A stretch of DNA of 42,568 nucleotides, from positions 1-42,568 of the IMG/VR virus record IMGVR_UViG_3300020121_000039. One strand, 5' to 3'. Of this stretch, positions 2,149-42,568 are shown piece after piece (within the stretch, counting starts at the first letter, position 1; each line of letters begins with the position of its first letter). The position numbers were made by a program, and so were the translations under genes. Source of the DNA: a virus. The notes under the pieces are model-generated. The model was not told the origin of the DNA. It did no database searches and saw only the letters and a program-made list of their open reading frames with translations.

Positions 2149-2207
2149 CACAAGCCTGTTGTAACGCAAACCATGATAAACGGTATTAAAAAGCCGACTA
2201 ACGGTAT

Positions 2208-2436
2208 GGTCTACCTTAGCCTACCTTGATGGTCTACCTTGTTCGGACCCTACTGTCTACTATATCTACCTTGTCTACCTTGAATTATCTCAATTCAAGA
2301 GAAAGGAGATGTAGGTATATTAGGTAGGGTAATGTATATGTGTAATACGTCGCCTATATAGGAAATCCAGTGTCCGCAAGGTAGAGCACTAGAATCAATG
2401 ACTTAGCAAGGTAGAGTCAAGGTAGGGCACGGTAGA
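2208..2436. repeat. Inverted array of TCTACCTT / AAGGTAGA repeats in the divergent intergenic region
   Basis: The left half carries TCTACCTT in direct repeat at 2210-2217, 2233-2240, 2265-2272 and 2274-2281, with variants at 2220-2227 (CCTACCTT), 2249-2256 and 2256-2263. The last copies are spaced nine bases apart. The right half carries the reverse complement AAGGTAGA at 2378-2385 and 2408-2415, with variants at 2321-2328, 2419-2426 and 2429-2436. The halves are separated by AT-rich DNA with a 21-bp palindrome (2279-2299) and the palindrome CCTATATAGG (2353-2362). The region lies between the leftward small genes and the rightward late genes. It looks like a set of protein-binding sites, either iterons of a replication origin or a multi-site operator. 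Confidence 0.85.
2279..2299. repeat. 21-bp hyphenated palindrome at the centre of the repeat array
   Basis: CTTGAATT and AATTCAAG form a perfect 8+8 bp inverted repeat around ATCTC. It directly abuts the last TCTACCTT copy (2274-2281). A dimeric regulator or an origin-unwinding structure would fit. The following GAAAGGAGA is purine rich, but no start codon for a gene follows it. Confidence 0.75.
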
Positions 2437-2556: not shown

Positions 2557-2961
2557 ATGTTCGATCAAGAGCGCGCTACCAGGCTGATTGCGAGCGGCGC
2601 CAGCCTGCGGCAAACAGCCAAGCAGCTAGGCTGCAGCGCCTCGCATATCTGCGAAACTGCGGCTTTAGACCCTGTTTTCGGCGAACAATACGCGCGCGCC
2701 ATGGCCATTCGACATGAACACGATGTCGAGCAGTTGGCTGAAATAAAGCAAAAGGTATTGGACGGCACAATCACGCCAGAACAAGGCCGTGTTGCCGGTG
2801 ATCTGATCAAGTGGCCGGCCGCCAGACGCGCGCAACATTTGTTCGGGGATCGGGTCAAGGTGGATGCTGAAGTCAGGCACTTCGTGATTGAAGACCCGAC
2901 ACGCAATGTACGCGCAGCACTTCTGCCAAAGCCAGTGCCGGCACTCGACCATGCCAAATGA
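2557..2961 (+). CDS. terS: Terminase small subunit
   Basis: The product (134 aa from ATG 2557) has a helix-turn-helix-like N-terminus, RLIASGASLRQTAKQLGCSASHI, then FGEQYARAMAIRHEHDVEQLAEI and LIKWPAARRAQHLFGDRVKVD. This order (HTH, 'F..QYARA', then a 'K W ... FGDR' end) is that of the small terminase subunit family that recognises phage DNA and hands it to the large subunit. The frame is open back to ATG 2443, but the extra 38 residues do not look like protein and neither start has a good Shine-Dalgarno sequence. It is the first gene of the rightward structural operon and the large subunit follows three genes later, as expected. Confidence 0.85.
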   Translation: MFDQERATRLIASGASLRQTAKQLGCSASHICETAALDPVFGEQYARAMAIRHEHDVEQLAEIKQKVLDGTITPEQGRVAGDLIKWPAARRAQHLFGDRVKVDAEVRHFVIEDPTRNVRAALLPKPVPALDHAK

Positions 2962-3310
2962 GCCGCTAAGGCGCTACGCGAGCCTACAAGCGCGTCGCGG
3001 TCGCGAGGCATACATCCAGATACGTACGCAGCTGCATCGCCTCAGATCGCTGCATATCGAGCCTAAGGCGATCTGGGTCAACCAGGCGACGGCCAATGAC
3101 ATGCACGCGCTCTGGTGTGAGGTATGCGGGCCTCGCGCATTCGATGGCGTGCTGCCGCCTGTTGCTGGCGTGCGCGTGTTCCAAGGCATGACTGGCGGGC
3201 ACGACTACACGTTTGAGTACCATGACAGCCGGGCAGAAGACCATGCGGCGCGTGACTGGAAGGCCGATGTGTTCCCACTAGTTGACAATCCTCTGGATGG
3301 GACCCATTGA
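2951..3310 (+). CDS. Hypothetical protein between terminase genes (119 aa)
   Basis: ATG 2951 overlaps the end of the small terminase gene by 11 bases; an in-frame upstream ATG at 2888 would overlap by 74 and is less likely. The protein is basic at the start (LRRYASLQARRGREAYIQIRTQLHRL) and ends in a GHDYTFEYHDS segment. I recognise no family. Position suggests a role in packaging or a moron. Confidence 0.65.
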   Translation: MPNEPLRRYASLQARRGREAYIQIRTQLHRLRSLHIEPKAIWVNQATANDMHALWCEVCGPRAFDGVLPPVAGVRVFQGMTGGHDYTFEYHDSRAEDHAARDWKADVFPLVDNPLDGTH

Positions 3311-9581: not shown

Positions 9582-10088
9582 ATGGCCGCTGCAGTAAATC
9601 ACAATCTCGGTACGCTTCTCACCAACACCTACGCCACCCCTCCGGTCTTCAATGCCACGGGGCAGGACCTCGTATCGGTCTACTTGAAGCAGGCCACCTG
9701 CGCGATCCCGGCGGTGGCCACGGACCTGGCGAATTCGACCTACGCCATGTGCCAGGTTTCCTCGTCTGACGTGCCGATTTCGATCAAGTTTTCTTCCACG
9801 GCACTGACGGCGGGAGCGATCAGCATCGGCTTGTTCCTGCCCAACACGGCGACGGTCGCGGCGACGAACAGCGACCACTTGTTCGTCACGTCGGTCAACT
9901 GTGCCGCTGCCGTGGTGGCGGTCGAGGAACGCTGGGCCAACAAGGATGTCACCACGCAAGGCCAGCGCATCTGGCAGTTGCTGGGCCTGACTTCCGATCC
10001 CGAGGCGATCTACGACCTGGCGTGCTACTCGACGACAGCCGCCACGGCCGCCGGTACGCTGGGCGTCATCTACACGTTCACCCGGTAA
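9582..10088 (+). CDS. Putative virion protein after capsid (168 aa)
   Basis: ATG 9582 follows the capsid stop by three bases. The protein is Ala/Thr/Val-rich and probably all beta (VPISIKFSSTALTAGAISIGLFLPNTATVAA), ending TLGVIYTFTR. I do not recognise the family. A beta-rich protein of this size right after the capsid gene could be a head decoration or cement protein, but that is inference from position. Confidence 0.7.
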   Translation: MAAAVNHNLGTLLTNTYATPPVFNATGQDLVSVYLKQATCAIPAVATDLANSTYAMCQVSSSDVPISIKFSSTALTAGAISIGLFLPNTATVAATNSDHLFVTSVNCAAAVVAVEERWANKDVTTQGQRIWQLLGLTSDPEAIYDLACYSTTAATAAGTLGVIYTFTR

Positions 10089-10097
10089 GGATCGAAC

Positions 10098-10304
10098 ATG
10101 GCCAACCAAACCGCCGGCATCAACGTGCAGGATCGCAACCCGTACAACATCACGGTGACGAACGCCGGCACGTTGGTCGGTAGCGACGTGGAACTGGTCT
10201 ACAACCAGGCGACGGTCCTGTCGAGACAGGACCTCATCACCTGCGTCGAGCAGTTCCTGGAGTTCCTGAACACCGCGTCGGGTACTGCATTCGGGCCGCC
10301 GTAA
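10098..10304 (+). CDS. Small protein of the head region (68 aa)
   Basis: ATG 10098 is preceded by AAGGATCGAAC, a usable ribosome-binding site. The product begins MANQTAGINVQDRNPYNITV and has an amphipathic helix RQDLITCVEQFLEFLNTA. There is no recognised domain. It lies in the same operon as capsid and tail genes and is probably a late or virion protein. Confidence 0.6.
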   Translation: MANQTAGINVQDRNPYNITVTNAGTLVGSDVELVYNQATVLSRQDLITCVEQFLEFLNTASGTAFGPP

Positions 10305-10305
10305 C

Positions 10306-10524
10306 ATGGGAAAGCGTGGACGGCACACGATCTACGTCAGTACGGACCCGAACAACATCGTCCAGATCGGAACGCCGGGGCAGTCGATTTTCATCGGCTA
10401 CCCTGGCCCGACGATTTACGGCGGGACCGGGACCGACACCAACCCTTCCGGCGTGCTTACCTTCTTGGGTGAGGCTACGGTAACATTCACCCCTACCACC
10501 GTTCCCGTCGTCGTGGAGTTCTGA
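10306..10524 (+). CDS. Small Gly/Thr-rich protein (72 aa)
   Basis: ATG 10306 is one base after the previous stop. The sequence is rich in Gly, Pro, Thr and Val (YPGPTIYGGTGTDTNPSG) and should be beta-stranded, with a basic N-terminus MGKRGRHTIYV. No family is recognised. The position between capsid and tail genes suggests a structural part. Confidence 0.6.
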   Translation: MGKRGRHTIYVSTDPNNIVQIGTPGQSIFIGYPGPTIYGGTGTDTNPSGVLTFLGEATVTFTPTTVPVVVEF

Positions 10525-33362: not shown

Positions 33363-33407
33363 GTTGACGTGGGATGCAAATTAACTTATATTCGCGGCCA
33401 TGTCAAC
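33363..33407. promoter_or_regulatory. Overlapping face-to-face promoters and inverted operator candidate
   Basis: Rightward promoter: -35 TTGACG (33364-33369), 17-base spacer, -10 TATATT (33387-33392), predicted transcript start at about 33399-33400, the A of the Cro-like ATG. Leftward promoter on the minus strand: -35 TTGACA (33406-33401), 17-base spacer, -10 TAATTT (33383-33378), start near 33371. The two -35 regions form a 10-bp inverted repeat, GTTGACGTGG (33363-33372) and the reverse complement GTTGACATGG (33398-33407), differing at one base. One protein bound there would cover both promoters. Confidence 0.75.
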
Positions 33408-33600
33408 TACTTTACACATCACGAAGGAACGGGCCATCGAACTGTTCGGCTCGCCGCTGGAACTGGCCGAAGCCCTTGGCATAGAACGTGCCAATGTGTA
33501 CATGTGGAAGGATGGCGAACCGATCCCGCAGAAGCATGCGCTGCATATCCGTTTCGTCTTGAAGCCGGAAGCGTTCAACGGGAAGCGCAATGCACGTTGA
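33400..33600 (+). CDS. Cro-like helix-turn-helix regulator
   Basis: A 66-aa protein whose core, AIELFGSPLELAEALGIERA, NVYMWKDGEPIPQKHALHIR, is the helix-turn-helix of small Cro/YdaS-type repressors (recognition helix at about ERANVYMWK). There is no Shine-Dalgarno sequence; the -10 box ends seven bases before the ATG, so the mRNA is probably leaderless, as for lambda cI made from its maintenance promoter. It is the first gene of the rightward middle operon and likely binds the inverted repeat in its own promoter. Confidence 0.85.
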   Translation: MSTTLHITKERAIELFGSPLELAEALGIERANVYMWKDGEPIPQKHALHIRFVLKPEAFNGKRNAR

Positions 33601-33829
33601 TGACCACTACGAACGTCAGCACACGCGCCAGCCACACAAGCACATCTGGCAACGCGAGACATCGCAAAGCGCACGCTGCGCTTGTGGCGCCCGCGCCGGC
33701 GTCCTGACCGACAGCGACTTGCATCCACCAGGCATGAGCGACGAGGAATGTGCAGGCATCCTGCGGGGCGAGCCGTGGACGAAGTGGGCGCCCGTGCCTC
33801 GTTTACCGAAAGGGTGGCGCGGAAGATGA
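33590..33829 (+). CDS. Hypothetical protein (79 aa)
   Basis: ATG 33590 overlaps the end of the Cro-like gene by 11 bases with GGGAAG upstream. The product is His-rich at the start (HVDDHYERQHTRQPHKHIWQ) and carries CACG with other His residues, perhaps a metal site. Its stop overlaps the RusA start as ATGA. No family recognised. Confidence 0.62.
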   Translation: MHVDDHYERQHTRQPHKHIWQRETSQSARCACGARAGVLTDSDLHPPGMSDEECAGILRGEPWTKWAPVPRLPKGWRGR

Positions 33830-39501: not shown

Positions 39502-39699
39502 ATGCACGAATCCGAACTGCCTTCGCAAAGCCGTCTGTATGAACTGGCGCGGCTGGCCTGCGCAGGACCCGTAGAACCTAAGCCCTCGAAACTTTCCCGT
39601 CTGCCCGTCGTCACCGGCGGCATCTTCGGCTGGTCGCGCAATCGCAAGGGCAACGTCGTCAACCTCATGTCCAGCCCGATCTGGCGGGGACGCAAGTGA
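39502..39699 (+). CDS. Small protein upstream of VapE-like helicase (65 aa)
   Basis: ATG 39502 has AAGGGG about 10 bases upstream; earlier in-frame codons run through the hairpin region and are excluded. The product reads MHESELPSQSRLYELARLAC and ends FGWSRNRKGNVVNLMSSPIW. GTGA overlaps the next gene. It may be a loader or partner of the helicase, from position only. Confidence 0.62.
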   Translation: MHESELPSQSRLYELARLACAGPVEPKPSKLSRLPVVTGGIFGWSRNRKGNVVNLMSSPIWRGRK

Positions 39700-41384
39700 G
39701 CGAGCATTTTGAAGCTACTGGATCGTGGCCGCATCGCGGGCAGTTCACCGGCATCGACATCCTGGCGCGCAAGCCGGACGCCAACGTGCTGCTGGTGATC
39801 GACGTGGCACAGGAGACCGCCGCGGCATTGTTCCCCGACCTCGCGGTGCTTGGCGTCGATGGATTCCCCAAGCCCGACACCGTACGCGGGCGCAAGGTGA
39901 TCGTGTGGGGGCCGTGCTGCCACGACGATGCTGCGCTTGCACAATCGCTGTCCACCGTCGCCGCCAAGGTGGCCGTGGTGCACGGCGAGCGCAATCCCAT
40001 GACCTTCGACGGCAGCGCGACGGCGGCACGACACTGGTTGAAAACGAACCTGCGGCGATTTGAGGCCGTCGCGCCTGCGGCTGCTGCGGTGCAGCCGGAA
40101 GTCGTGCGCGAGGCGCCTGCGACGAATGGCGCGGCATGCGAGGCCAAACCGGCCAAGGTTAAGAAATCTGAATCGCCAACGATAATCGCCCGTAAGGCCA
40201 CGCGCGAGCGCACCGAGGGCACGTCTTGGGCCGACTTCGGGCTGGTGCTGAACGACGACGGCATACCGGTATCGACGTTGGACAACTGCGTGCGCGTGAT
40301 CGAGCATCACCCGGACCTGGCCGGCAAACTGTGGTACGACACGTTTTTGGGCAAGATCGTGCAGGAATGGGGAGTTGACACTCCCAAGGAATGGTCGGAC
40401 TACGACGACGTGCGCATGGCGCTGTTCCTGCAGCGCGACATTGGCATCCCTCGCGTCAGCCCGCCGCTGGCGTCGTTCGCGGTCGTGGCCTACGCGCACC
40501 GGGAATCGCGCAACTGCGCCTACGACTGGCTGGATGCGCTGCAGTGGGACGGCAAGCCCCGCTTGCAGGACATCGCGACCAAGGGGTTCGGGGCACTGGA
40601 CAACCTCTACAACCGGCAGGTCTGCCGCAACCTGCTGCTGGCGATGGTCAAGCGCGTGTTCTCCCCCGGCTGCAAGTCGGACTACATGCCAGTATTCGAG
40701 GGGCCGCAAGGCGAGGGCAAGTCCAAGGCGCTGGCGATCCTGGGTGGTGACTGGTTCGCCGAACTGCACATGGACTGGAACGGGAAAGACTTCTACCAAG
40801 CCCTGCAGGGCAAGATGCTGCTGGAGATTGGCGAACTGCATGCGTTCAAGCAATCGGACGTGGACCGTATCAAGGGCATCGTGTCGTGCCCGACTGACCG
40901 CTACCGCGTGTCCTTCGGCCGGCATGTGCAGGATCATCCCCGGCATTGCGTGTTTGCAGGCACTACCAACCGCGACGACTGGAACCGGGACGATACCGGC
41001 GCACGGCGCTTCTGGCCGATCGTCTGCGGCGCGATCGACCACAATTGGTTACGGACACGGCGCGAACAGTTGTTTGCCGAGGCCGTGCATGACGTGCGCG
41101 CTGGCAAGACCTATTGGGAAGTGCCGTGGAATGCGGCCAAGGCCGAACAGGAGAACCGCCGGCCGCCGGATGCGTGGGACGACAAGGTAGCCGACTGGGT
41201 GATCGGCAAGAATACCGTGCGCATCTGCGACTTGATGATCGACGCCTTGGGGATAGAACTAGGGCGGCAGACGCTTGCCGACCAGCAGCGCGCGGGGCGT
41301 TGCATGCGCAAGCTGGGGTGGACCAATCGCAACGTGACAGTGAACGGCAAGCAGCAAAAATGCTGGTGCCGTTCACTCGATTAG
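39696..41384 (+). CDS. VapE/VirE-type replication helicase with TOPRIM-like N-terminus
   Basis: A 562-aa protein starting at GTG 39696 (GTGA overlap). Residues about 1-115 resemble a TOPRIM domain in layout (LLVIDVAQETAAALFPDLAV, VRGRKVIVWGPCCHDD), but the usual catalytic Glu and DxD are not in place. Residues about 230-500 form the VirE (virulence-associated E) P-loop domain: GPQGEGKS (336-343, Walker A), MLLEIGEL (374-381, Walker B), CVFAGTTNRDDWNRDDTGAR and RRFWPI (arginine finger region). Such proteins act as replication initiator helicases in phages without their own DNA polymerase. It is probably the replication initiator here. Confidence 0.9.
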   Translation: MSEHFEATGSWPHRGQFTGIDILARKPDANVLLVIDVAQETAAALFPDLAVLGVDGFPKPDTVRGRKVIVWGPCCHDDAALAQSLSTVAAKVAVVHGERNPMTFDGSATAARHWLKTNLRRFEAVAPAAAAVQPEVVREAPATNGAACEAKPAKVKKSESPTIIARKATRERTEGTSWADFGLVLNDDGIPVSTLDNCVRVIEHHPDLAGKLWYDTFLGKIVQEWGVDTPKEWSDYDDVRMALFLQRDIGIPRVSPPLASFAVVAYAHRESRNCAYDWLDALQWDGKPRLQDIATKGFGALDNLYNRQVCRNLLLAMVKRVFSPGCKSDYMPVFEGPQGEGKSKALAILGGDWFAELHMDWNGKDFYQALQGKMLLEIGELHAFKQSDVDRIKGIVSCPTDRYRVSFGRHVQDHPRHCVFAGTTNRDDWNRDDTGARRFWPIVCGAIDHNWLRTRREQLFAEAVHDVRAGKTYWEVPWNAAKAEQENRRPPDAWDDKVADWVIGKNTVRICDLMIDALGIELGRQTLADQQRAGRCMRKLGWTNRNVTVNGKQQKCWCRSLD

Positions 41385-42053: not shown

Positions 42054-42265
42054 GCAAGCGCCTCGCATTCGTCTTCGTCTGCAATCGCAGCCTCGCGTGC
42101 CTCTTGTACCGCGAGCATGCACGCCAGCGCGTACACCTGGTCGTCTGATGGCATGTCGCCCGCTTCATCCGATAGCTGGTCGCGTGCGTCTTCCAGGTGG
42201 CGCTGCGATGGCTCGATATCGTCGTCTGTCGGCTGCGTGGTTAGCCAGAGGTCGAAGGTGGTCAT
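41999..42265 (-). CDS. Acidic hypothetical protein (88 aa)
   Basis: ATG 42265 to TAA 41999. The product is very acidic (TTQPTDDDIEPSQRHLEDAR, AIADEDECEALACESWRDDM) and helical. Its start overlaps the stop of the Ala/Tyr-repeat gene as ATGA. Small acidic early proteins of phages sometimes mimic DNA; the composition permits that here, but there is no further evidence. Confidence 0.65.
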   Translation of the reverse strand: MTTFDLWLTTQPTDDDIEPSQRHLEDARDQLSDEAGDMPSDDQVYALACMLAVQEAREAAIADEDECEALACESWRDDMEDRYGDGPL

Positions 42266-42568
42266 GGCGTGGCCTCATCGGCGAGATGCAGATACGCGCA
42301 ACCCGGCGACTTCATGTCAATGAGGATTTCCAGCGCCATGTCTGCAGTTGCGCACAATACTTCGTCGCGCGCTTTCGCTTTGGCTTCGGCGGCGGCGGCG
42401 GCGTCGTAGGCGGCGGCGGCGTAGGCGGCGGCGGCGTAGGCGGCGGCGGCGGCGGCGGCGTAGGCGGCGGCGGCGTAGGCGGCGTAGGCGGCGGCGGCGT
42501 AGGCGGCGTAGGCGGCGGCGGCGGCGTAGGCGGCGCCGCAGGCATGATAATTGTCAGCCAGCATCCAG
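42262..42568 (-). CDS. C-terminal part of Ala/Tyr-repeat phage protein (truncated by window edge)
   Basis: The frame is open from base 42568 to TGA 42262. After a short lead (WMLADNYHACGA) come about 50 residues of AAYAA/AYAAYAAAA repeats, then the conserved end EVLCATADMALEILIDMKSP, GCAYLHLADE. Proteins with this repeat and this end usually begin with the N-terminus seen at 1-214, so an internal ATG at 42564 is probably not the true start. The helical Ala/Tyr repeat may act as a spacer or oligomerisation rod; function is unknown. Confidence 0.75.
   Translation of the reverse strand, partial: WMLADNYHACGAAYAAAAAYAAYAAAAYAAYAAAAYAAAAAAAYAAAAYAAAAYDAAAAAEAKAKARDEVLCATADMALEILIDMKSPGCAYLHLADEATP
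42388..42536. repeat. Low-complexity GGC/GTAGGC coding repeat
   Basis: The plus strand consists of runs of GGC triplets interrupted by GTA at irregular spacing, giving alanine runs broken by tyrosine on the minus strand. The spacing of Tyr varies (three, five or eight residues). Such DNA is prone to slippage and to assembly collapse, which may explain why the contig ends close by. Confidence 0.9.

Follow-up and report, generated by a model that had tools for sequence, protein, structure and literature searches.

The alpha protein of phage P4 is a primase-helicase that recognizes repeats at its own origin (ori/crr). The Rep helicases of SaPIs bind iterons directly 3′ of their own gene via the C-terminal domain (PMC7581432), and the origins of PICIs, described in a paper that also treats P4, contain two iteron sets on either side of an AT-rich region (PMC6092414). 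The helicase Cch2 of SCCmec likewise uses its C-terminal domain to bind short repeats that lie downstream of the gene encoding it (PMC7581432). In lambda O-type origins the iterons are bound by the phage initiator (PMC11447400), and for the Pbunavirus Banzai the initiator was proposed to be a SaPI-like self-loading helicase, iterons not being part of that proposal (PMC12390725). In the open-licence papers, no literature linking VapE or VirE with iterons was found.

Here, an inverted repeat array in a stretch of phage DNA of 42,568 nt (IMG/VR record IMGVR_UViG_3300020121_000039, referred to as the window) was compared with these systems. The array is likely to be the bidirectional replication origin of the phage, bound by the winged-helix C-terminus of its VapE helicase, and by analogy it would work like a SaPI/PICI rep-ori. 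With the rep-ori of SaPI1 (PriRep1, 7pds) and the PICIs it shares a VapE-like self-loading helicase with a C-terminal DNA-binding domain, both predicted in the window. Unlike these elements, the window is not a satellite but a full-size phage that carries structural genes of its own. It encodes both terminase subunits (small and large) and a large rightward set of late genes, which does not agree with the helper-phage dependence of a PICI. The iteron is also different, no primase domain was recognized in the helicase, and the array does not adjoin the helicase gene but lies about 3.4 kb from it, beside terS. The proposal for the window is comparable to Cch2, which differs in being a D5/Primase_Cterm-type helicase with three direct-repeat iterons only, for which replication in vivo was not shown. 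P4 alpha belongs to a different helicase family, and a close relative of the window (contig L002) has a D5/P4-like helicase in place of VapE. The lambda O-type iterons differ from those of the window in being tandem repeats inside the initiator gene, and the initiator is not a helicase (PMC11447400).

Nine copies of CTACCTTG/CAAGGTAG matching in at least 7 of 8 bases were found within 225 bp (between 2211 and 2435), five in one direction and four in the opposite one, with CTACCTTG as the best core (Table 1). Positions 2190-2450 contain 9 such matches to CTACCTTG compared to 22 across the remaining genome, while 0.13 would be expected per 260 bp. Exact copies of TCTACCTT are located at 2210, 2233, 2265 and 2274 on the plus strand and at 2378 and 2408 on the minus strand, and copies with one mismatch at 2220 (+) and at 2419 and 2429 (−). 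For the whole window, 28 matches to TCTACCTT with at most one mismatch were counted versus 10.3 in shuffled sequences (sd 3.4, maximum 17). In a scan of the 42.6-kb genome for two-strand 7-mer clusters the array ranked top with 8 copies, followed by 5 copies at a single place (23301), and in 5,000 shuffles of the array region such clusters reached at most 4 copies. A two-strand cluster of this kind is thus unique to the array within the genome. The repeats were located where an earlier note on this DNA had described them (2208-2436), and the site counts and shuffles establish the array as real; an equal repeat density elsewhere in the genome, which that note had named as the argument against it, is contradicted by the same counts. 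GC skew, used as a strand-skew check for the replication start, was uninformative and gave no clear origin, and no DNA match to the array region was found in the phage collection.

Table 1. Positions of the array elements and associated genes in the window.
Feature	Position	Strand	Remarks
AACGGTA repeat pair	2179..2206	+	21 bp apart; common to all three relatives
Left iteron arm	2210..2282	+	CTACCTTG-type sites at 2211, 2221, 2234, 2266, 2275
21-bp palindrome CTTGAATT-ATCTC-AATTCAAG	2279-2299		overlaps innermost left iteron
AT-rich central gap, presumed melting region	2283..2376		94 bp, 36% GC
Right iteron arm	2377..2436	-	CAAGGTAG-type sites at 2377, 2407, 2418, 2428
terS	2557..2961	+	first rightward gene past the array; likely start ATG 2557, not 2443
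VapE-like helicase, proposed origin-binding initiator	39696..41384	+	PF05272, E 1.9e-67
VapE C-terminal winged-helix-like domain, proposed iteron reader	41163..41381	+	about residues 490-562; predicted model

The spacings between the sites are mirror-like (10,13,32,9,[102],30,11,10), with two inner copies in the left arm and one in the right arm. The GC content of the central gap is far below the 60% of the genome, in agreement with the AT-rich center that had been claimed. The palindrome, which the earlier note had regarded as the turning point, does exist. It is located off-center, at the inner end of the left arm, and was found conserved neither in L002 nor in a second close relative, L160. 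The AT-rich gap is the turning point, and the palindrome is probably incidental. The AACGGTA pair to the left of the array was found with a spacing of 21-22 bp in the window, in L160 (12044-12071) and in L002 (5667-5695), whichever helicase type is present. It may be an outer, helicase-independent element or a pair of degenerate outer iterons.

The closest solved structure to the VapE of the window is PriRep1 (7pds), which we read as a SaPI1 protein from its name and the cited literature. The match was found by phmmer (E 6.6e-42), and the structural comparison of VapE residues 175-562 gave a Z of 31.9 over 383 residues, far above the next matches. Together with the PF05272 domain, this places the protein among PriRep1/VapE-type helicases. 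The earlier statement that no named regulator is known for this site is therefore half right, since the candidate ligand groups with the SaPI1 self-loading helicase. In the full-length model the C-terminal block is winged-helix-like with a pLDDT of about 94 across most of its length; the predicted fold rests on this model, since the domain folded alone gave a poor one. A 58-aa basic protein, proposed as another ligand, had no family match and gained no support.

For the comparison with other loci, VapE genes were gathered regardless of arrays (80 bacterial loci, annotated phages and viral contigs), and three loci found by their arrays (L157, L125 and L145) were added. This resulted in 84 non-redundant loci (below 80% amino acid identity), which were analyzed for two-strand 7-mer clusters of at least 6 copies. 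Such a cluster follows VapE in 53 of the 84 loci compared to 4 of 484 other ORF ends (Fisher 1.6e-47), a P value that is too small since the VapE loci are related and their independence is overstated, although the contrast is still large. With a tighter window, clusters were identified after VapE in 58% of the cases and in 0.07% of 3,029 other windows; shuffled sequences contained none, and none was found upstream of VapE in this survey. In some of the VapE loci that did not score, the array lies just past the test window or overlaps the gene end. Arrays of this architecture are thus linked to VapE in general, and the survey suggests that they are common in prophages and phages.

The repeats themselves differ among the VapE loci (AGGTTAGGA, AGGTATGGA, GGGTCCGGGT, AGGTCGGGC, TGCGTCA, TGTTGCA and others). 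The 53 arrays have a median span of 248 bp, and their first copy is found at a median distance of 10 bp past the stop codon. The median length of their largest gap is 93 bp (quartiles 72 and 101), and in 43 of the 53 this gap is AT-richer than the locus itself. The geometry of the window (225 bp span, 94-bp gap, 36% GC) fits these values. Mirror-like spacings were also found in L210 (20,12,45,10,9,[111],10,9,43,11,12,10). A common plan is seen in the window, L145, L192 and L210: the inner copies are 9-10 bp apart with a central start-to-start distance of 102-111 bp, the next spacer is 30-55 bp, and the outer copies are separated by about 10-13 bp. A different repeat kind is present downstream of the VapE gene in L162, where 17 one-strand copies of CCGGAGAC were detected (10075-10407).

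Next, the similarity of the iterons was related to that of the VapE protein parts in 52 loci. The correlation was 0.55 for the C-terminal domain and 0.47 for the motor. In partial Mantel tests, the value for the C-terminal domain controlled for the motor was 0.33 (0 of 2000 permutations) versus 0.04 for the motor controlled for the C-terminal domain (489 of 2000 permutations). Since iteron similarity tracks the C-terminal domain over the motor, this domain is supported as the reader in general. The two loci with the C-terminal domains nearest to that of the window, L177 and L178, have an iteron similarity of just 0.35-0.37. The window iterons are only partly like theirs, so the pairing of VapE and iterons in the window is one that we infer, and the window motif is not predictable from VapE alone.

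The IMG/VR contigs were scanned for sequences with three CTACCTT copies, without reference to VapE. Among the matches listed, at least six intergenic two-strand CTACCTT arrays were found in other contigs; other matches to the pattern were mostly coding or tandem repeats. In L157, L125 and L145 the array is located no more than a few hundred bases from the VapE 3′ end. Since the scan was seeded with CTACCTT, the agreement of the window motif with those of L157 and L125 is in part a product of the search itself. Two further arrays were found beside other helicase genes, one next to a Prim-Pol with DUF5906 (L158, 2699-3082) and one next to a DnaG-type primase-helicase (L085, 10358-10602). An irregular one-strand array lies beside a DUF3987 protein in L106 (4662-4989). 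These three cases suggest that the rule extends past VapE to other primase-helicase families. The CTACCTT array in L047 (8321-8467) adjoins a Mu-type transposase gene and perhaps represents transposase end sites. A CTACC core general to VapE was rejected: across 96 VapE loci its clustering was no greater than that of its permutations, so the generality lies in the architecture and not in the sequence.

The array was then compared between the window and its close relatives. The VapE of L160 is 70% identical to that of the window over the helicase part and the C-terminus, and L160 has the same gene order on one contig. Its left arm is in register with the window and carries a drifted motif (CTACTCTG, CTACCCTG), while its right arm is weak and hardly recognizable. 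L002 shares 78% (TerL) and 83% (portal) identity with the window and carries a helicase gene at the equivalent place. The helicase part of this gene is of the D5_N type, without blast similarity to that of the window, whereas homology to the window VapE is seen over its first 160 residues (32%, E 2e-12). No match to D5_N (PF08706) was found within the window genome, and no VapE on the incomplete L002 contig. The helicase part has thus apparently been exchanged inside one gene. The N-terminal homology was recorded for 39696-40190 of the window and 1900-2490 (−) of L258, the remainder being unrelated. The window-type array is missing in L002, with one site matching in at least 7 of 8 bases versus nine; two copies of AACGGTAG resembling the iteron are kept. 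Conservation in close relatives, to which the earlier note had tied its reading, therefore holds for the left arm in L160 and fails in L002 with its D5-type helicase. This single case, with an incomplete contig, is consistent with a joint exchange of helicase and origin. No further relative spanning the array was revealed when the gene at 2951-3307 and the portal were used for scans.

In the proposed mechanism, the winged-helix C-terminal domain of VapE would bind the CAAGGTAG iterons, one cluster per side, so that two oppositely oriented rings would form. The 94-bp AT-rich gap would then melt, and the rings would load themselves and unwind outward, leading to bidirectional replication. Origin iterons and VapE as their ligand, both put forward in the earlier note (each as one of two possibilities), are favored by the comparative sequence data: similar inverted arrays are found directly behind VapE in many unrelated prophages and phages, their geometry matches, and the type of iteron varies with the C-terminal domain of VapE. 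An argument against the origin reading is the separation of the array from VapE by a leftward operon, both in the window (about 3.4 kb with the genome ends joined, VapE reading towards the array) and in L160 (about 2.4 kb).

The other reading of the earlier note was a cooperative operator, in which a phage repressor or activator on both arms would control the leftward small-gene and the rightward terS/late operons. The array is indeed situated between divergent operons: the leftward one, which includes an HNH endonuclease, starts from 2076, and terS and the late genes follow to the right. This is the large divergent intergenic space of the genome, as had been described, since the only other divergent junction (~33351/33399) measures just ~50 bp. 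A small ORF adjoining that short junction (33399-33602, +) is Cro-like by eye and had no Pfam match. The AACGGTA pair, kept in the three relatives, looks operator-like as well. Nevertheless, an operator is improbable: arrays of the same geometry are located at VapE 3′ ends elsewhere and not at promoters, their motif type tracks the VapE C-terminal domain, and a weak scan revealed no sigma-70-like promoter at the array.

Still less probable is a packaging site (pac or cos) at which the small terminase subunit would bind the repeats. Such sites are often found near terS, and the array ends ~120 bp ahead of the likely terS start, which is kept in the relatives. In L160, however, an extra ORF parts the array from terS, and comparable arrays elsewhere follow VapE and not terS. 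Since the array lies between divergent operons and next to terS, both explanations retain a small probability, yet they do not account for the same-geometry arrays behind VapE genes. Chance or low-complexity repeats without function are practically negligible, given the excess of sites over expectation, the top rank of the cluster in the genome, the shuffles and the left arm in register in L160.

Beyond this locus, we lean with less confidence towards a wider view of the VapE proteins of bacterial mobile elements. They may be general self-loading origin-binding helicases with a lineage-specific iteron code read by the C-terminal winged helix. Phages would then swap the helicase part as a unit with its matching origin, the N-terminal domain and the remaining genome being retained. 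The window and L002 would be a natural example of such a coupled change. In many genomes VapE is named "virulence-associated" without a stated job, and the arrays point to replication initiation. As 3′ arrays are present at most of the sampled VapE loci, they provide testable origin predictions for many prophages.

The ends of the window probably join, as is suggested by L002, which runs from the equivalent of a repeat gene at the window end into the equivalent of the window start. This low-complexity, Ala-Tyr-rich gene, with (GGCGTAGGCGGC)n on the plus strand, is located beside the helicase gene in both (42262-42564 (−) in the window, about 960-1300 in L002). At 2520-2570, around the likely start of terS, TTGACAACGC precedes a conserved GCGnGGCATGTTCGA block. 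This arrangement is kept in the window, L160 and L002 and is possibly a promoter or packaging element.
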